A stretch of 22,394 bases of DNA. It comes from an uncultured Kineosporia sp. (GTDB lineage Bacteria; Actinomycetota; Actinomycetes; Actinomycetales; Kineosporiaceae). A program made the translations under genes and the position numbers. The stretch covers positions 1-22,394 of the forward strand of contig CALMAR010000457.1 of NCBI GenBank assembly GCA_937859855.1. Reading direction: 5' to 3'. How positions within the stretch are numbered: position 1 is the stretch's first letter; every line of letters begins with the position of its first letter. Below, in pieces: positions 15,178-22,393 of this stretch. The notes below the pieces were generated by a model, which saw only the letters and a program-made list of their open reading frames with translations, had not been told where the DNA came from and ran no database searches.

Positions 15178-15207
15178 ACTATCGGCAGATGAGAGTGGAG
15201 GGTGATC

Positions 15208-15741
15208 ATGCAGCGGCTGGACCACGATCGCGTCACCAGGTACGTCGAAGCTGACCCGCACAAGGTGTACGACCTCGTCTCCGACGTCACCCGCACACCG
15301 GAATGGAGCCCGGAAGTCATCGAGTCCCGGTGGCTGGACGGCGCAACCCACGCCGTAGCAGGAGCCCGGTTCCGCTCACGCAACCGCCGGCGGTGGTTCA
15401 CCTGGAGCAACACTCCCGTCGTGGATACCGCTGACCCGGGGCGCGAGTTCGCGATCACACGCACCGAACCTGGCGGAGGATCCATTCGCTGGGCCTACCA
15501 ACTGCAGGCCAGCGGAACAGGCACCACGGTGGTGCAGACCTACGACGTGTTGAAGCCGGTACCCCTCGGACTACACATCATCCTGCGGATCCTTCTCGGC
15601 GTCCGAGAGCTCAAAGAGGATCTGCACGCCAACATCCAGATCAGCCTTGCGCGCATCGCGCACATCGTAGAAGACCAGTCCCAGCTCCCACCAACAGCCA
15701 AGACCGGCACAGACGTCGAGTCGATGCCAACGGGCGAGTAA
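15208..15741 (+). CDS. SRPBCC family (polyketide cyclase/dehydrase-like) protein
   Basis: This is a 177-residue protein from ATG 15208, with GGAGG at 15197-15201 six bases upstream; an in-frame GTG at 15202 is less well placed. RYVEADPHKVYDLVSDVTRT followed by PEWSP is the classic N-terminal strand and helix of SRPBCC cavity proteins. RWAYQLQASGTGTTVVQTYDV near 93-115 is the beta-hairpin core, and a long C-terminal helix follows (LRELKEDLHANIQISL region). Such proteins bind hydrophobic ligands or act as cyclases. The divergent TetR gene and operator suggest induction by a small lipophilic molecule, which is inference. The last 20 residues are polar and probably unstructured. Confidence 0.88.
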   Translation: MQRLDHDRVTRYVEADPHKVYDLVSDVTRTPEWSPEVIESRWLDGATHAVAGARFRSRNRRRWFTWSNTPVVDTADPGREFAITRTEPGGGSIRWAYQLQASGTGTTVVQTYDVLKPVPLGLHIILRILLGVRELKEDLHANIQISLARIAHIVEDQSQLPPTAKTGTDVESMPTGE

Positions 15742-16349
15742 ACCGACGGGCGACACTCAACAACGAAAAGTTGGGCCGATGCTGTCATCCTCGACGGACG
15801 TTCAACAGCGCCTCTGAGCTGGATGCTAGCCAAGCGGAGGCCTCACGTCGTCTCACGTCGTCTCACGTCGTCTCACGTCGTTGACTCTTGCTCGCCAGCC
15901 ATTGGCCCGCGTGGAGCACCCGCTAGTCGCCCCGTCGTAGCGCGCACGCCGGTGAAGGCCCACCGAGCGAGAGCGGTGCCGTTTCGGGCCAGGAACGTGC
16001 GCGTCCGAAGGCTCCACGTAACCCATCGGATCGAGATAGGTCAACGCCACCCACCCCGCTGGGGCCTGCGTCCGACGTGAGTCCAGGGTGCCGGAGGTGC
16101 GATGTTGCACAGGACCCGTTTTGTCCGTCTGACTTTCGGAGCTCAGCCGTTGCCGCGAGATCGTCGGTTGCCCACTCGATCCGCTCCCTGCGTGGCATGT
16201 GACTAGCAGCGGACCAGCTGGCGATGTCGAAGAGGCCGGGTACGCGGTCGGTCGGTCTTCGTGCGCTAATCCCGATTGCTCCATTGTGTTCGCGTGTTCC
16301 CTGCAGTCCCCTGACGTCATGCTCGGGCCGACGTGACGTCCCTGATTTC
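15742..16349. other. 608-bp gap with a short tandem repeat and no confident gene
   Basis: Several open frames occur on the minus strand (about 15853-16402), but none has a ribosome-binding site, a recognisable motif or consistent codon use. Fragments such as WVALTYLDPMGYVEPSDAHV look protein-like but match nothing I know. The gap contains the 10-bp tandem repeat listed separately. Confidence 0.5.
15842..15881. repeat. Four perfect tandem copies of a 10-bp unit
   Basis: The unit CTCACGTCGT is repeated four times without mismatch. It is in noncoding sequence 100 bp after the SRPBCC stop codon. The 10-bp period is close to one helical turn, so all copies face the same side of DNA. Replication slippage is the simplest origin; a protein-binding array is possible. 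Confidence 0.9.
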
Positions 16350-17399
16350 TCACGTACTCGCCAGCGGGTCTGCCCAGGCGTCTCTGAAGCGGCGGTAAAC
16401 ATCGGGGTGCAGGAGCGCGTCAGAGGTGTCTACGGCCTGGTCGATGGCTCCGATGGGCGGCAGCGTGGCCAGGGCCGGATCGTCAACTGAGGCCAAGCAC
16501 GGGTCGGCGAACCGGTAGGCGATCAGCACGCGAGCCGGACGGTCGTGAAACAGCCGCAGGTCCGGGTCGACCGGGTCAATAAGAGCGAGCTGGTTGAAGC
16601 GGCGCGCGACCGCCTGATAAGCCTGCCCGAGGGCAGCCTCACGAGTGTCCAGGTCCGGTGCACGGACCGCAGCGCTCAGCATCAGGTCGAGTCCGTCCGG
16701 GTGGTCCAGGCTCGCAAACGCGGTTCCTAGCCACTTGGAGTACGGGGCGTAGCGGCGCTTGATCAGCAGCGCGAGCCGCATCACGTCACGCGCTAGACGT
16801 GCGGCAATCACCGCGGAGCCCAGCTCGTCACCTACTTCTGCGGTGCGCTGGACGAATGGCTCCTCCTGCGCGAGCCGGCGCCACTGACAGCCCAGCATCC
16901 ATCGCCACAACGGATCGGGGTACCAGGCGAGGTGGGAGCGGACCCTTCCAAGCGCACCGGTGTCATCACGGAAGACGGTGCCTGCCACTACCCCAAGAAG
17001 GAGCTGCTGCGGCGTCACCAGCCAGTCCATAGTTGAAAGCGGCTGAGTGGCGTCTACGCCGAGGTGCGATGTCAGCCATTCGGGCAGAGTTGTGACGGTC
17101 ACGTGGTGTTGCACCGGAACTGGGCCCCAGCCGTACCACACCGGCCAACCCCGGAACGTCGCAGGTAGCCCGGTATCGATCCTGCCCGCGACCGCCGCGA
17201 CGTCTGAGCGGTCGACGAACAGCTGCAGCCGCGGGCCCCAGCCATGATCGGTCGAGCGCGGCGTGTCGAACCCCAACGCGTCAGATCCGGTCCCGATTAA
17301 CGCCGCCGAATGTGTCACGTCACCAAGCAACGGGCCGACAACCTCGCGGTACAGGCCACCCGCCAGCTCGAGCCCGGGAACGAATGCAGGACCCGACAT
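16350..17399 (-). CDS. DUF4037 nucleotidyltransferase-like protein
   Basis: This is a 349-residue protein from ATG 17399, chosen for GAGGAG about ten bases upstream; the frame continues upstream to 17552 without a good start. IGTGSDALGFDTPRSTDHGW near 35-54 and GPRLQLFVDRSD at 55-66 form the DUF4037 signature, with GxGSD resembling the nucleotidyltransferase GSxxD motif and a DH..WGPR segment. The middle and C-terminal helical part (LVTPQQLLLGVVAGTVFRDD, YPDPLWRWMLGCQWRRLAQE, KWLGTAFASL) matches the family, which often has a kanamycin-nucleotidyltransferase-like fold. The substrate is unknown and antibiotic modification is unproven. It sits beside decayed sequence. Confidence 0.85.
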   Translation of the reverse strand: MSGPAFVPGLELAGGLYREVVGPLLGDVTHSAALIGTGSDALGFDTPRSTDHGWGPRLQLFVDRSDVAAVAGRIDTGLPATFRGWPVWYGWGPVPVQHHVTVTTLPEWLTSHLGVDATQPLSTMDWLVTPQQLLLGVVAGTVFRDDTGALGRVRSHLAWYPDPLWRWMLGCQWRRLAQEEPFVQRTAEVGDELGSAVIAARLARDVMRLALLIKRRYAPYSKWLGTAFASLDHPDGLDLMLSAAVRAPDLDTREAALGQAYQAVARRFNQLALIDPVDPDLRLFHDRPARVLIAYRFADPCLASVDDPALATLPPIGAIDQAVDTSDALLHPDVYRRFRDAWADPLAST

Positions 17400-17538
17400 T
17401 ACGCCGCGCTCCTCTGCTTCCAGGGGCTCAGCCACGCGCTTATGGCGGTCGCCAATCGCATCGCAGTAGGCAAGCAGGCACTTCGAGCCGGACAGCTGCT
17501 GGTCCCCAGCTGCCACTGCGGGCAGATGATCGCTCCCT

Positions 17539-18120
17539 TCATGCCAGCGCATCCTTCGCTCGCTGAGACCAGCCGAACGTCGGCCTGTTCATGAGTATGA
17601 GGCCTTGTCCAGCACGCCCCTGCTCGTCTTCGTCCCGGTCATCGACCTCCGTCACCCTCATCACCAGGACCGGGCCAACCAGGCGGAAGTACACGGCGCC
17701 CAAAGCCATTGCGCTGCGCTTCAAGTCAGGCAGGATGACCACTTCCTCGGTCGCTCCGCCTGACTTGTCCAAGCGCGGGCGGGTGATGATCTAATCGCGG
17801 ACATCTTTCGAACACCGTGTCTGGATCGGCGGCGATCACAGCCTGGTCGTGGATGCCCCGGTTGCGATCCGTGTTGGCGGCTTCGACTTCGTCGAGGACC
17901 GCTTTCCACCATCTGGCGTTAGGGCTGCATGCGAGCGAGGGCAGTCAGTTCCTGGCGCAGGCCCTGGACCAGCCGGCCCGTGGTCAGCGGAGTCCGCGCG
18001 GGTGATCGGCGCCGCGCAGTCCAAACAGGATGGCTCGAACCCCACGTCCATCTGCGTGTGCAGCCGCACGATCATCGCGACCTCCTCAGTGAAGGCCCGG
18101 TCGTAGGCGATCGGTACTTC
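17539..18120 (-). pseudogene. Probable gene broken by several frameshifts, family unknown
   Basis: Read from 18120 downward, protein-like segments occur in successive frames. They are VPIAYDRAFTEEVAMIVRLH with TQMDVGFEPS, then RLVQGLRQELTALARMQP, then NARWWKAVLDEVEAANTDRN with RGIHDQAVIAADPDTVFE. The last is DKSGGATEEVVILPDLKRSA running to FGWSQRAKDALA (open 17772-17539). The segments meet end to end with little overlap, as expected if one or two genes took indels. The last segment alone could be an intact 77-codon ORF. I do not recognise the family. Sequencing error is another explanation. Confidence 0.35.
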
Positions 18121-18302: not shown

Positions 18303-18318
18303 TATGCCTTGAGGCATA
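18303..18318. repeat. CTTGAG-centred palindrome next to the tRNA remnant
   Basis: TATGCCTTGAGGCATA is a perfect inverted repeat with 7-bp arms around TG. Equivalent palindromes lie at 20321-20336 and 21628-21643, where they form the right ends of IS481-type sequences. All three are followed within about 10 bp by GTGCCCCCGG. This copy may be the worn end of another IS or part of the original tRNA downstream region. Confidence 0.55.
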
Positions 18319-18327
18319 ACACAAAGT

Positions 18328-18367
18328 GCCCCCGGCAGGATTGAAACCGTCGCCACCGCCTCCGGAG
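18328..18367 (-). repeat. Degenerate copy of the 3' half of tRNA-Arg(CCG), candidate att site
   Basis: This 40-bp block matches 21652-21691, the acceptor, T-arm and anticodon-side part of the intact tRNA-Arg gene, at 36 of 40 positions. All four differences are in the T arm, where they destroy the TTCGA loop and one side of the stem, so it cannot act as a tRNA. There is no CCA. Orientation is the same as the intact gene, as expected for the far end of an element integrated at the tRNA 3' end. No integrase gene is visible between the copies. Confidence 0.65.
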
Positions 18368-18797
18368 ACAGGTCACTCACCTCGACTCTGGTGTCCTGAG
18401 TACACGCCATGGAGGCTTATCGGGCCTCTTGAACGTCATGTTTGGCCCCGGATGACGCCAGTTCGTCCCACGAACCGCTCCACGGAGGGCCCAGAGACCC
18501 GGTCTGCACGAATCTCGAGATTGGAAGCTTGGGGCCGCCCGGCGTCTAGGTACTCGGCCGTCAGGGCCAACGTGCTCGTAGCCACGGGTACGGGGCCAAA
18601 GTAAGCTGATGCATACGTACCTTTTCAACCGTTTTGACGGGGGGACTCCGAACAAATCGAGCTTGGCTAAGACTTGCAATCATCACAGCAGGTCCTTCAG
18701 TATCAAATACGAACATACCACTTAGTGGGCAGCATCTCGGGCCGACGCCCGCGAGCTACGCGTCGAAATCCTTAGCGGAAGCAGTCGGAGGCATCCA

Positions 18798-19571
18798 GTG
18801 GCCGATGAAAGCCTGCTACAGGAGAAGCCAATCAAGACATGGAGAGGTGGCAAAGACCAACTCCTGCGCCTTGGCGAGGTGATGGACCGCCAGTTCGTTG
18901 AACTATGCCATAAGGCCGAACAATCGGCTGTCCCCACCTGGAACACGCTGATTCCATGGCGGAAACGGCGATTAATTGGGGAAATTCGTAGTCGGTATCA
19001 AGTAATTCTTGAAGTTACAGACCAAGACAAGCGTATTGTCAAAGACACTTTCTCAGAAGCCCTGCGCAATAATGAACTGACCGGTATTCATAAGATTACA
19101 TTCAATTGCTCGGTCGACGATCAGAGTTGCACGCTTACTCTTACTACGAATGGCGCAAACAACAGTTCACTTACTGTGCAAGGACCACCAGCTTGGGCAA
19201 GGCAAGCCTTTGCCGAACTAAGCCGAACCCTCCGCCACAGCCGGCCATGGTGGACATGGATGTGGCTCACCTACCTGCAAACAATTGTCGGAATGACCCT
19301 TGTCGCGGCAGTGATCGCAACCAGCTTTGTCGTCGTCGATGACTCGGGGCCTTTCTGGTGGACAGAATTCATCATTCTGGGTGTAGCTGCCCTTTTGCCG
19401 TGGTTCTTGCTACTCGTACTTCACTGGCTGTTTCCCGCAATTTCTGTCAAGGAAGAAGGTGCCCCCGATACCCGCCGACAGGTGGGTCGCATCGTCGGGG
19501 GCCTGGTCGGCGCAGCAGTCACGATTCTCACCATCACCACATCAGTTATTTCCGTCATCAATCGGAAATAG
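18798..19571 (+). CDS. Three-TM membrane protein of unknown function, lower GC
   Basis: This is a 257-residue protein from GTG 18798, with GGAGG (18787-18791) six bases upstream. Residues 1-150 are soluble and mixed alpha/beta, with many charged residues and two Cys (CSVDDQSC). TM segments lie at about 157-179, 188-213 and 229-253, and the protein ends three residues later (NRK). A Trp-rich stretch (RPWWTWMWLTYL) leads into the first helix. The codon use is clearly AT-richer than its neighbours, indicating horizontal origin. I do not recognise a family. It is the only intact cargo gene between the two tRNA-Arg copies. Confidence 0.75.
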   Translation: MADESLLQEKPIKTWRGGKDQLLRLGEVMDRQFVELCHKAEQSAVPTWNTLIPWRKRRLIGEIRSRYQVILEVTDQDKRIVKDTFSEALRNNELTGIHKITFNCSVDDQSCTLTLTTNGANNSSLTVQGPPAWARQAFAELSRTLRHSRPWWTWMWLTYLQTIVGMTLVAAVIATSFVVVDDSGPFWWTEFIILGVAALLPWFLLLVLHWLFPAISVKEEGAPDTRRQVGRIVGGLVGAAVTILTITTSVISVINRK

Positions 19572-19904
19572 CAAGAGCCTTGTGGCAGTAGTGCTACGCA
19601 TAGGGGTTTCCGCACCACGTAGCAAACCCTTTGTGCAGCTCGGCAGGCTCCGCTAACAGCGGCAATCAGAGCCCCAATGGCCGTGGCCCACGAAGCTACT
19701 TGCTGCGCCATATCCATGACCGCAGTCTGCATGTGATCATCTCCGCTTGCCGTGGTCATGTCTTGGAGCTATCGAGCGGAAGTTTCCTAAGCCCAACGCC
19801 ACGCGTTGCCGAAAGCATGGTCGGGTGTGCGGCACCAGACGAGGTGAGCACCGCCCCACGGATAACGTCGCTTATGAGGGTATCAGCGCAGGTCGGACGG
19901 CGTT
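19572..19904. other. 333-bp gap between membrane protein and transposase remnant
   Basis: A 112-codon minus frame (19421-19759) overlaps the end of the membrane-protein gene. It starts with a weakly hydrophobic segment but has no ribosome-binding site, so I do not call it. No terminator, tRNA or IS end is evident here; the left part of the transposase remnant has been lost. Confidence 0.5.
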
Positions 19905-20282
19905 CAGTACGACCAGCACTGCCCGCACCGGTCTCTGCCCCACCGAGCCACCCCAGCAACGACCTACGCCGCCCGTCCGAAAGCCCACCCGTCCGCCGAC
20001 CAGATCAGCCGACGGGCCGCCGACAGCCACGACCGCCTCCGCCACGACCGGATCGACGACTCCGGGTCGATAACCCTGCGCATGGGCGGCCGCCGGAACC
20101 ACATCGGGATCGGACGAACCCACGCCCGAATACACGTGATCATGCTCATCCACGACCTGCACGTGCGCGTCGTGCACGCCGCCACCGGAGAACTCCTCCG
20201 CGAGCTGACCATCGACCCCCGGCGCGACTACCAGCCCACCGGCAAAACCGGCAAGGTCCACCGGCAACCACCCCGGACATGA
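19905..20282 (+). pseudogene. 5'-truncated IS481-type transposase, C-terminal remnant
   Basis: About 125 codons stay in one open frame to the TGA. They align with residues about 279-389 of the intact transposase at 20426: QYDQHCPHRSLPHRATPATT matches QYYNHHRPHRSLDRRTPAAA, and HIGIGRTHARIHVIMLIHDL matches HIGIGRTHARTHVLMLIQDL. The sequences are diverged, not identical, so this is a related element and not a recent duplicate. The catalytic DDE region is missing. Its hairpin and right end survive downstream. Confidence 0.85.
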
Positions 20283-20318
20283 GACTGCCTAACCCACAGA
20301 TCGTGGGTCCGGCAGTCT
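20282..20318. terminator. Two-part hairpin after the transposase remnant
   Basis: AGACTGCC (20282-20289) pairs with GGCAGTCT (20311-20318), and inside it ACCCAC (20292-20297) pairs with GTGGGT (20303-20308). It begins at the stop codon. The intact transposase has an equivalent hairpin, so it is a conserved part of these elements, probably a terminator. Confidence 0.65.
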
Positions 20319-20320
20319 CC

Positions 20321-20336
20321 GATGTCTTGAGACATC
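20321..20336. repeat. Right-end palindrome of the IS481-type remnant
   Basis: GATGTCTTGAGACATC is a perfect inverted repeat (7-bp arms, TG centre) followed by ACA, the usual last bases of IS481-family elements. Then comes TTGGTGCCCCCGG, identical to the 3' end of the tRNA-Arg gene including its CCA. Confidence 0.65.
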
Positions 20337-20425
20337 ACATTGGTGCCCCCGGTGGTGTCCTGTTTCAGGACATAGGTATGGCGCGTCTCAGGACATACGC
20401 ATAGATCAGTTGTGCAGCGTCGGGC

Positions 20426-21595
20426 ATGTCGAAAGCTCGGCTCGTCATCACTGCAGTGGCCATGGAAGGCCGCACACAGTCGGAGGTCGCAGCTTCCTAT
20501 GGGCTGTCCCAGTCGTGGGTCAGCCGGCTGGTCGCCCGCTACCAGGCCGAGGGACAGGCCGCGTTCGAACCAAGGTCGCGTCGACCGGTCCGCTCACCCA
20601 CCGCCACCGCGGCGCCGGTGGTGGAGCTAGTGCTGCGGCTGCGTAAGGAGCTGGCCGGGCAGGGCCTGGACGCCGGAGCGCACACGATCTGCTGGCACCT
20701 GGAACACCACCATCAGATCATCGTCTCGGCGGCGACGGTGTGGCGGATCCTGTCTCGGGCCGGTCAGGTCAGCCCGCAGCCGAAGAAGCGGCCGAAGAGC
20801 TCGTATCTACGGTTCGAGGCCGACCTGCCGAACCAGACCTGGCAGACCGACTTCACCCACGTCCGCCTAGCCACCGGCCGCGACGTCGAGGTGCTGAACT
20901 TCCTGGATGACCACTCCCGCTATCTTCTAGCCTGCATCGCGTTCTCGAGGGTCACCGGACCAGCCGTTGCTGCCGTCTTCCAGGAAACCGTTGCACAGCA
21001 TGGCGTTCCTGCCAGCGTCCTGTCCGACAACGGGATGGTCTTCACCACCCGATTCGCCGGCGGCAAAGGCGGCCGCAACGGGTTCGAGACCGAGCTGCGT
21101 CGCCTGCACGTGATCCAGAAGAACTCCTCCCCGAACCACCCGCAGACCTGCGGGAAAGTAGAGCGGTTCCACCAGACCTTGAAGAACTGGCTGCGAGCTC
21201 GACCAGTGCCACCGGCCACGATTCTGGCCCTGCAGGCTCGGCTGGAGGAGTTCGCGCAGTACTACAACCACCACCGTCCGCACCGCTCACTGGACCGCAG
21301 AACCCCAGCTGCTGCCTACGCCGCCCGACCCAAGGCAACCCCGACCGGGCCACGCACCGACACCCACGAACGCGTCCGCCGCGACCGCATCGACGACACC
21401 GGCGCCGTCACCCTGCACCGCAACGGCCGCCTCCACCACATCGGGATCGGGCGAACCCACGCCCGAACCCACGTCCTCATGCTCATCCAGGACCTCAGCG
21501 TCCGAGTGATCAACGAAGCCACCGGCGAACTCCTCCGCGAACTGGTCCTCGACCCCACCAAGGACTACCAGCCGAGAGGCCACACACAGCGATAG
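20426..21595 (+). CDS. IS481-family transposase (DDE, rve)
   Basis: This is a 389-residue transposase. The N-terminal HTH (residues about 8-55) contains RTQSEVAASYGLSQSWVSRL, followed by a basic linker and a second HTH (about 62-115). The integrase core (rve) spans about 133-300, with the catalytic triad Asp142 (WQTDFTH), Asp201 (LSDNGMVF) and Glu246 (KVERFHQT). The RPHRSL segment follows. A C-terminal beta-rich extension (DDTGAVTLHRNGRLHHIGIG, ATGELLRELVLDPTKDYQP) is typical of one actinobacterial IS481 group. It has no frameshift, so it may still be active. A weak promoter in the left end and a strong hairpin after the stop frame the gene. Confidence 0.93.
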   Translation: MSKARLVITAVAMEGRTQSEVAASYGLSQSWVSRLVARYQAEGQAAFEPRSRRPVRSPTATAAPVVELVLRLRKELAGQGLDAGAHTICWHLEHHHQIIVSAATVWRILSRAGQVSPQPKKRPKSSYLRFEADLPNQTWQTDFTHVRLATGRDVEVLNFLDDHSRYLLACIAFSRVTGPAVAAVFQETVAQHGVPASVLSDNGMVFTTRFAGGKGGRNGFETELRRLHVIQKNSSPNHPQTCGKVERFHQTLKNWLRARPVPPATILALQARLEEFAQYYNHHRPHRSLDRRTPAAAYAARPKATPTGPRTDTHERVRRDRIDDTGAVTLHRNGRLHHIGIGRTHARTHVLMLIQDLSVRVINEATGELLRELVLDPTKDYQPRGHTQR

Positions 21596-21624
21596 CCCAA
21601 CCCACAACCGTGGGTTCGGGCTAT
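21592..21624. terminator. Strong two-part hairpin after the intact transposase
   Basis: ATAGCCC (21592-21598) pairs with GGGCTAT (21618-21624), and AACCCAC (21599-21605) pairs with GTGGGTT (21610-21616) around a four-base loop. Fourteen base pairs are interrupted by a single bulged C. It overlaps the stop codon and parts of the right inverted repeat, and may both stop transcription and shield the IS end. Confidence 0.75.
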
Positions 21625-21647
21625 GCGTATGACTTGAGACATCACAT

Positions 21648-21722
21648 TGGTGCCCCCGGCAGGATTCGAACCTGCGCCACCGCCTCCGGAGGGCGGTGCT
21701 CTATCCCCTGAGCTACGGGGGC
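21648..21722 (-). tRNA. tRNA-Arg (anticodon CCG)
   Basis: The sequence folds into a full cloverleaf. The acceptor stem is GCCCCCG/CGGGGGC, the D stem GCTC/GAGC and the anticodon stem CCGCC/GGCGG with loop CTCCGGA (anticodon CCG, reading CGG). A four-base variable region follows, then T stem GCAGG/CCTGC with loop TTCGAAT. The discriminator A (21651) and CCA (21648-21650) are encoded. The IS481-type element ends one base from the CCA, yet the gene remains intact. Confidence 0.95.
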
Positions 21723-21760: not shown

Positions 21761-22393
21761 TCACGAACGCGAGACGGGCACCCGGGCCGGCAGGGCGTCG
21801 TCCGACCGGAGCGCGCGCAGGGTCTCTCCGCACAGGTAGGCGTCGACGAGTCGCTCCAGGTACTCGTCGGTCACCGGGCCGCGGTTGACGAAGCGCCGCG
21901 AGGTGATGGGACCGGTCAGCAACGACAGGTTGGCGGGGTCGATCTGCAGGCCCGTGGGCTGCAGCCGCCGGTTCAGGTCGGCCAGGCGCCGGCCCACCAC
22001 CTCGGCCAGCCATCTCACCGCCGCCTCGTCGTCCTCGGCGGAGCGGATCAGCTCGAACAGCGCCGATGCCTGGTCCCGCTGGGCCAGCCGGTCGGCGTAA
22101 CTTCGCAGCCAGGTGATCAGGATGCGGCGGGCGCCGTCGTCCTGCGCTCGTCCGTAGTTGTCCGGACCCTCGAGCATGATGTCGCGCAGCAACTGTTCGC
22201 GCCGCGGCCAATGCCGGTACAGCGTCTGCCGGGTGACCCCGGCGCGGCGGGCGATCTCGGCGTAGCTGAACGCGTCGATGCCGTCCCGGGCGATCAGCTG
22301 GCGGGCGGCCACGAGGACGGCGGCCCGGGTCCGAGCCGCGCGGGGATTCGGTCGCATCCGCGGGGCGACCTGGGCGGGGCGGGGCCGGCTCAC
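21761..22393 (-). CDS. TetR/AcrR family transcriptional regulator (5' end may lie outside)
   Basis: This protein has at least 210 residues in the frame from GTG 22393 at the window edge; ATG 22357 is an alternative start, and the true start may be outside. The TetR HTH covers about 21-66 (RTRAAVLVAARQLIARDGID, FSYAEIARRAGVTRQTLYRH, then WPRREQLL). The C-terminal domain contains ASALFELIRSAEDDEAAVRW and NRGPVTDEYLERLVDAYLCG, resembling TetR C-terminal dimer domains. There is no visible partner gene in the window. It lies just upstream of tRNA-Arg on the same strand, 38 bp away, and is independent of the island. Confidence 0.85.
   Translation of the reverse strand: MSRPRPAQVAPRMRPNPRAARTRAAVLVAARQLIARDGIDAFSYAEIARRAGVTRQTLYRHWPRREQLLRDIMLEGPDNYGRAQDDGARRILITWLRSYADRLAQRDQASALFELIRSAEDDEAAVRWLAEVVGRRLADLNRRLQPTGLQIDPANLSLLTGPITSRRFVNRGPVTDEYLERLVDAYLCGETLRALRSDDALPARVPVSRS

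Follow-up and report, generated by a model that had tools for sequence, protein, structure and literature searches.

Why does a single tRNA gene have three copies of one palindrome lying beside it? The question is raised by a 22,394-nucleotide stretch of DNA from an uncultured Kineosporia sp. (assembly GCA_937859855.1, contig CALMAR010000457.1, positions 1 to 22,394 of the forward strand), referred to below as the window. The three palindromes are the right ends of three related insertion sequences (IS) of the IS481 family, named here IS-A, IS-B and IS-C, which are stacked at a tRNA-Arg(CCG) gene. Comparison with relatives points, with a probability of roughly 0.93, to a clade of this family whose transposase would insert at a fixed place in tRNA genes, the tRNA gene staying whole.

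The palindrome core ATGNCTTGAGNCAT occurs without mismatch at 18304, 20322 and 21629, always on the plus strand, and at no other place in the window. When up to two mismatches were allowed on both strands, six matches were obtained, all within the three palindrome sites (0.75 expected; none of 100 shuffles reached six). The sequence GTGCCCCCGG is present exactly three times, at 18326, 20343 and 21650, in each case 7 or 8 bp past a palindrome core, which confirms the arrangement reported in a preliminary description of this DNA. Its rightmost copy is part of the 3' end of the intact target gene, tRNA-Arg(CCG) (21648..21722, minus strand, predicted by ARAGORN).

The element next to this gene, IS-B (20356..21646, plus strand), is intact and 1291 bp long, with TGT at 20356 and ACA at 21646; its ends were set against those of relatives. 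It is flanked by a target duplication, whose distal copy is TTGGTGCCCCCGGTGG (20340..20355, plus strand) and whose proximal copy, TTGGTGCCCCCGGCAG (21647..21662, plus strand), now forms the 3' end of the tRNA gene; the two are identical at 14 of 16 positions. The T-loop GATTCGAAC starts at 21663, directly after the proximal copy, and the right end of IS-B faces the tRNA.

Related elements beside tRNA genes

Relatives were collected in two samples, the first of 30 loci and the second of 394 evenly drawn genomes from the class of genome G001, 43 of which contained a match at an E-value of 1e-50 or better (56 elements). The two samples together, less seven elements of the second that fall outside the clade and with locus L001 counted once, gave 78 elements, five of them without a readable right end. 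L024 was kept in the first-sample count, though only its C-terminal part matched, at 30% identity; L043 and L044 were left out of the counts, and L044 also lies at a T-loop motif in register.

The right end lies at a tRNA in 69 of the 73 readable elements: 51 face an intact tRNA gene and 18 a tRNA 3' fragment, by which we mean that a T-loop motif is in register but the tRNA is not intact, most but not all of these fragments matching known tRNAs over at least 20 nt. The script initially picked up a fortuitous motif within the L006 element, whose real junction motif is GGATCGAAC. The intact neighbours comprise tRNA-Pro, Arg, Ala, Leu, Ser, Met, Tyr, Thr, Gln, His and Lys, and the specificity for tRNA-Arg suggested in the preliminary description is therefore not borne out. 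The alignment of relatives' right ends that it proposed has thus revealed an association with tRNA genes across many isoacceptors, wider than it had anticipated, and the random downstream sequence that it named as the contrary outcome did not occur. The long C-terminal extension by which it would have recognized such relatives is no marker, since L098, a sister not at a tRNA, matches over the extension too. No tmRNA was found as a target in 190 sequences.

A further sample of 246 genomes, from the phylum of genome G011, yielded matches in nine genomes (11 elements, one of which, L041, is L012 of the first sample). By eye, 10 of the 11 face a tRNA, five intact and five fragmentary. After the eleventh, in L184, the 15 bp of its left flank recur, and a second element, facing tRNA-Leu, comes next. 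Four copies are found in genome G388, one each at tRNA-Arg, Tyr, Ala and Ser. A comparison of three of them over 1301 bp showed differences of 0–1 base, and each of the three has a perfect duplication. L046 and L001 form a clean stack, whose three junctions all have the identical 15 bp. Clade relatives of which both ends were found measure 1.0–1.4 kb, except L001, whose 2690 bp are a stack of two copies. Among plasmid records, 3558 gave a match, six of them covering at least 80% of the query; five matches were inspected. The best, L112, is a clade member on a 754-kb Arthrobacter plasmid, with a 15-bp duplication and a tRNA 3' fragment of ~35 nt (by eye). Seven phage records matched, none covering 80% of the query, and no close relative was found among them.

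Target duplications were identified without use of the T-loop in 40 elements, 25 of 15 bp, 14 of 16 bp and one of 17 bp; 34 have no mismatch, two have one and four have three. L005 and L046 were excluded from this set; at L005 the script chose the wrong repeat, the real duplication being 15 bp. In 39 of the 40, the boundary on the tRNA side is the base before GNNTYGAAC, the T-loop on the other strand, and the remaining one (L107) deviates by a single base, its length having been called as 15 instead of 16 bp. We take this boundary to lie between tRNA positions 61 and 62, with the duplication spanning 62 to 76 or 77.

Across 51 distinct targets, C at +9 and G at –13 (base C74) are present in all; the invariance of +1, +4, +6 and +8 is no evidence, as the motif by which targets were picked already requires these positions. 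Base 74 is C in the 58 target tRNAs, but the 24 other tRNAs of these loci, which include some second-clade targets (see below), all have C there too, and C74 was dropped as an additional determinant. An encoded CCA was likewise dropped as part of the target, being absent from 40 of the 58 intact tRNAs that a loose pattern, which admitted a few second-clade ones, assigned to targets. With the constant positions matching other tRNAs and CCA mostly absent, the constant part of the targets is what tRNAs share, and the common denominator is the T-loop.

The scan for an element end followed by a T-loop was also applied to random windows of the fetched DNA, which is rich in tRNAs, and 570 of 20,000 (2.85%) matched. 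As a control for canonical IS481 elements, 60 genomes of the same class were taken, 21 with an NF033577 match; 30 loci were inspected, of which one lacked a tblastn match and one was a clade member. Of the 28 control elements left, one (L124) met the scan, by chance. In seven of the 28, 6-bp NNTAGN duplications are present, which contain CTAG in six cases and are of the kind known for IS481.

The stacked elements and their surroundings

The IS-B transposase (20426..21595, plus strand, 389 aa) comprises a helix–turn–helix (HTH), an integrase core of the Asp-Asp-Glu (DDE) type and a C-terminal beta-barrel. Its Pfam domains, HTH and rve, are not those of a tyrosine recombinase. The gene product scores 236 bits with the NCBIfam model of IS481, NF033577 (cut-off 224), and 86.7 bits, below the cut-off of 250, with ISNCY_2, which presumably stands for the IS1202 group. 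It is encoded by the only plus-strand open reading frame of at least 90 aa within the 1.29-kb element, and no additional genes of the Tn7-like kind (TnsC, TniQ/TnsD, Cas) accompany it. The left end (20356..20404, plus strand) contains a subterminal repeat at 20385–20404, to which the right end (21621..21646, plus strand), with its palindrome at 21628–21643, is 90% complementary, so that inverted repeats occur together with TGT...ACA termini, as in the IS481 family. A hairpin that appears terminator-like by eye (21593..21623, plus strand) overlaps the stop codon before the right end, and similar hairpins are present in many relatives (by eye).

A structure model of the transposase (mean predicted local distance difference test score, pLDDT, of 82; predicted template modelling score, pTM, of 0.58) has N-terminal helices at the Pfam HTH positions, an integrase core and a six-stranded C-terminal beta-barrel (315–374). 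Foldseek matched it to IstA of IS21, TnsB of ShCAST, retroviral integrases and MuA, with TM-scores of ~0.3–0.4 over the whole query.

IS-A (19905..20339, plus strand) is the remnant of a related element, in which the C-terminal coding part (19905–20249) and the intact right end (20321–20339) are left; its transposase is 61% identical in protein sequence to that of IS-B over query residues 280–387 (window 19908–20249). No transposase homology was found next to the palindrome at 18303, and IS-C (18303..18323, plus strand) is therefore called a right end only, by eye most like that of L001. The preliminary description, in which two of the palindromes belonged to diverged IS481-type copies, is thus upheld by an intact and a truncated element, and the third site is a bare end.

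Adjoining IS-C are 15 bp in the register of a target duplication (18324..18338, plus strand) and, from 18339, an altered T-loop, GATTGAAAC. Here the match to the tRNA gene is far longer than the ~15 bp common to the 20343 site: a 42-nt copy of the tRNA-Arg 3' half (18326..18367, plus strand) corresponds to 21650–21691 at 90% identity and ends at the anticodon loop. The acceptor sequence does recur at all three sites, as first described, with the leftmost match now extended accordingly. In islands of the tyrosine-integrase type the crossover typically lies at the tRNA anticodon loop, and since the copy stops there, we read it as a displaced tRNA 3' half that is likely the relic of an integrated island. 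Such an island may have integrated after the insertion of IS-C and before those of IS-A and IS-B, leaving the displaced end. Repeated site-specific insertion of related IS481 elements beside the tRNA, the simplest reading offered at the outset, is thus strongly supported, except that the leftmost site requires a second event, island integration or another rearrangement, for its 42-nt fragment.

Around the stack, a DUF4037 protein (16350–17552, minus strand; Pfam, 105.8 bits) is encoded to the left of the bare end, and a TetR-type regulator (21761–22393; Pfam) across the tRNA from the elements. Four 10-bp tandem units, one GCCTCACGTC and then three GTCTCACGTC, occupy 15840–15879, in the spacer to the right of an open reading frame at 15202–15741.

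Relationships within the IS481 family

In a tree of 80 transposases, a single clade of 64 rows, with a Shimodaira–Hasegawa-like approximate likelihood ratio test (SH-aLRT) support of 98, unites the tRNA-adjoining elements and six whose end is unreadable. Sixteen others fall outside, two of which (L051 and L056) were later assigned to a second tRNA clade. In a 63-row tree the first clade has an SH-aLRT of 95. Its nearest outside relatives include L098–L100, L104 and L115, whose ~15-bp duplications lie in the middle of long palindromes (by eye); the targets are one repeated palindrome family in genome G209 and are terminator-like in L104 and L115. L099 gave a chance scan match beside a tRNA-Glu ~40 bp off and was counted outside the clade, its own duplication being in a palindrome. 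L113 also lies within a palindrome.

In two elements of the control set, L128 and L130, and also in L051, a tRNA immediately precedes the left end. When 296 genomes were searched with L130, 20 of them yielded a total of 27 matches. All 14 matches with frames of ~400 residues (two of them truncated) have a tRNA 3' end before the left end, intact in 13 and, by eye, a fragment in L161; in the 13 intact cases the tRNA is 111–118 bp before the transposase start. The other 13 matches, mostly with frames of ~600 residues, form a sister group in which ARAGORN found no tRNA, L180 being cut by the contig end. The second clade, distant from the first, comprises L154–L165, L173, L175, L051, L128 and L130, where L128 is L160 and L130 is L154. 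Its left end, not the right end as in the first clade, is proximal to the tRNA, and its cut position is different: the duplications, found in six of the 14 and in L051, begin some six bases deeper into the 3' strand, near 67/68, and that of L163 one base earlier (by eye).

The two tRNA groups are separate in the 63-row tree (SH-aLRT 95 and 99), with a minimum of two changes, and their joint grouping is rejected by the approximately unbiased (AU) test (p = 1.6e-10), the groups having been named once the data were known and the trees being quick searches. As far as these trees indicate, tRNA targeting has probably arisen at least twice within IS481. Among the relatives with ~600-residue frames, eight of the 11 inspected (L167–L169, L174, L176–L179) share, by eye, an upstream motif like GCCTTGAAGACGTAGAGAAAGTT beside the left end, which is perhaps a third kind of specific target.

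Target choice, alternative explanations and significance

In the first clade, as the sequences show, one strand boundary is at tRNA positions 61/62, immediately on the 3' side of the universal T-loop (GTTCRANNC), and the other 15 or 16 bp on, just beyond the tRNA 3' end. The duplicated 15–16 bp restore the T-stem, the acceptor stem and the discriminator; the right end (palindrome ...ACATCACA) faces the tRNA in 69 of the 73 readable copies, and the displaced 3' end remains at the left end. Transposition presumably follows the usual DDE route, the unusual step being the choice of target: the transposase, or a complex holding it, may read T-loop DNA and, perhaps helped, engage it in one orientation and join two strands 15–16 bp apart. 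The palindromes are probably transposase-binding repeats of the element ends. As the target is regenerated, further elements could insert at the same tRNA and stacks would form; as the duplication restores the tRNA, insertion would be close to neutral and repeatable. The four copies in G388 and the stacks in the window and at L046/L001 fit such insertion. We lean only slightly towards the fuller proposal that a lone transposase of ~390 residues, with no helpers or guide RNA, reads T-loop DNA and inserts its element at one phosphate in nearly any tRNA gene, which the duplication rebuilds, and that this ability arose at least twice in IS481, with opposite orientation and different cuts.

Several observations weigh against insertion at a fixed place in whole tRNA genes. 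The first sample came from a pattern-based scan, drawn with conserved peptides of the query, and the clade line was drawn once the sequence tree and the flanks were both known; the seven of 56 matched elements that fall outside it are not at tRNAs in the expected register. Of the 73 neighbours 18 are truncated, so that not every site has a complete tRNA today. Four of 73 right ends fail the automatic test: at L019 the tRNA match is no longer than 13 nt, L023 has an altered T-loop within a tRNA-Pro fragment, L046 is the inner copy of a stack, and at L071 the right flank is rearranged and the left flank holds the tRNA-Met duplication. The two duplication copies of IS-B itself differ at 2 of 16 bases. 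Flanks of two different tRNAs occur at L012 (Gln and Ala) and in the L184/L189 pair, and we read both as recombination between copies or misassembly; the second element of the pair, whose flanks mismatch each other, is likely to have either origin. L022, grouped with L012/L041, also has two flanks that come from different tRNAs.

Could the association with tRNA genes be the work of selection on near-random insertion, sparing only harmless copies? Selection is unable to fix the boundary at one T-loop base in 39 of 40 duplications, or one orientation in 69 of 73, and canonical IS481 elements of the same taxonomic class sit elsewhere with 6-bp duplications, so that this explanation is exceedingly improbable. 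Hardly more probable is integration by recombination between matching sequences, with the element itself carrying a tRNA 3' sequence as tyrosine-integrase islands do. It would account for a tRNA 3' end at both ends of the elements, like attL and attR, and the 42-nt fragment at 18326–18367 and the 18 truncated neighbours suggest use of these tRNAs by such islands as well; but the compact element in the window encodes a DDE transposase, and the near-identical copies L089, L090 and L091 have different 15–16 bp at each tRNA. For the window alone, the stack might stem from duplication or recombination among copies and not from repeated insertion. IS-A and IS-B share 97% identity over 31 nt at their right ends, and the mixed flanks of L012 and L184/L189 are a sign of recombination or misassembly, yet protein identity between IS-A and IS-B is just 61%, and a short identity at the ends is expected from a shared target and conserved ends; we regard this origin as unlikely.

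A more serious alternative, which is possible though doubtful, concerns the reader of the T-loop: instead of the transposase itself, a host factor, the transcribed or processed tRNA, or the DNA structure of the T-arm might recruit the element. Yeast offers a precedent in Ty3, which uses TFIIIB (PMC5911963). Insertion in the middle of palindromes by the sisters outside the clade would be in line with a reading of DNA shape or of a hairpin. On the other hand, the insertions keep a fixed register to the T-loop irrespective of the acceptor stem, no feature of the targets stands out from those of ordinary tRNAs (the CCA and C74 counts above), and a fragment of only ~35 nt holds L112 on its plasmid.

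Among the matches listed in open-access full text, no report of an IS481 element with tRNA specificity was found; subscription papers, preprints and ISfinder were outside the scope of this search. Islands and prophages with tyrosine integrases use the 3' part of a tRNA and restore it; they bring their own tRNA tail and as a rule use one tRNA type only, whereas in the IS481 clade the tail is copied from each target as the duplication. The factor TFIIIB is lacking in bacteria. Ty3 and other retrotransposons that target RNA polymerase III genes share position-specific integration at tRNA genes and an integrase recombinase with the clade, but Ty3, a retrotransposon, inserts 1–4 bp from the transcription start under the guidance of TFIIIB (PMC5911963). 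The eukaryotic DNA transposons called Dada also have a DDE transposase and fixed positions inside tRNA or snRNA genes, but their duplications are 6–7 bp and each family targets specific RNA genes (PMC3706591). Tn7-like elements, including CRISPR-associated transposons, have a DDE transposase of related fold and use tRNA genes as attachment sites, but choose the target through TnsD/TniQ or a CRISPR guide (PMC11406308), in contrast to the single 389-aa gene here.

Within the family, canonical members (IS481, ISRe46/TnRErm46) share the IS481 DDE transposase and TGT...ACA ends, but have 6-bp NCTAGN duplications (PMC6794481) and were not found at tRNAs here, unlike the tRNA-specific clade with its 15–16 bp. 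Kojima and Bao describe IS481 members with ~15-bp duplications, in a text that does not contain the word tRNA (PMC10045372); with such lengths on record, duplication length sets the subgroup apart, not the family. The nearest described behaviour that we found is that of the ISAjo2-type elements of the IS1202 group (Harmer and Hall), single-transposase ISs that lie in fixed position and orientation at a conserved host site, 5 bp from the XerC side of dif/pdif, and whose transposase has been modelled on TnsB (PMC10132070). They differ in target (dif) and in their 5-bp duplication; for the group with long duplications no target had been found, and tRNA is unmentioned in that paper (PMC10132070). 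The right ends studied here lie at tRNAs and not next to dif/pdif, although no search was aimed at dif sites.

Few site-specific DDE insertion sequences have been described, the dif-seekers being the nearest found. The target proposed here is a motif common to tRNA genes, which offers dozens of sites per genome, and the duplication length appears suited to keeping the tRNA functional; the clade would thereby spread without disrupting any essential gene. Among bacteria it would be the counterpart of the tRNA-targeting retrotransposons, with one gene in place of a guide complex. Such insertion accounts for the stacks of ISs found next to tRNAs. It may also interact with the attachment of phages and islands to these tRNA genes, and a small tool for safe-harbour integration at multiple sites may come of it. 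With two clades that seek tRNAs and sisters that seek palindromes, one can ask directly how a DDE transposase changes its target.

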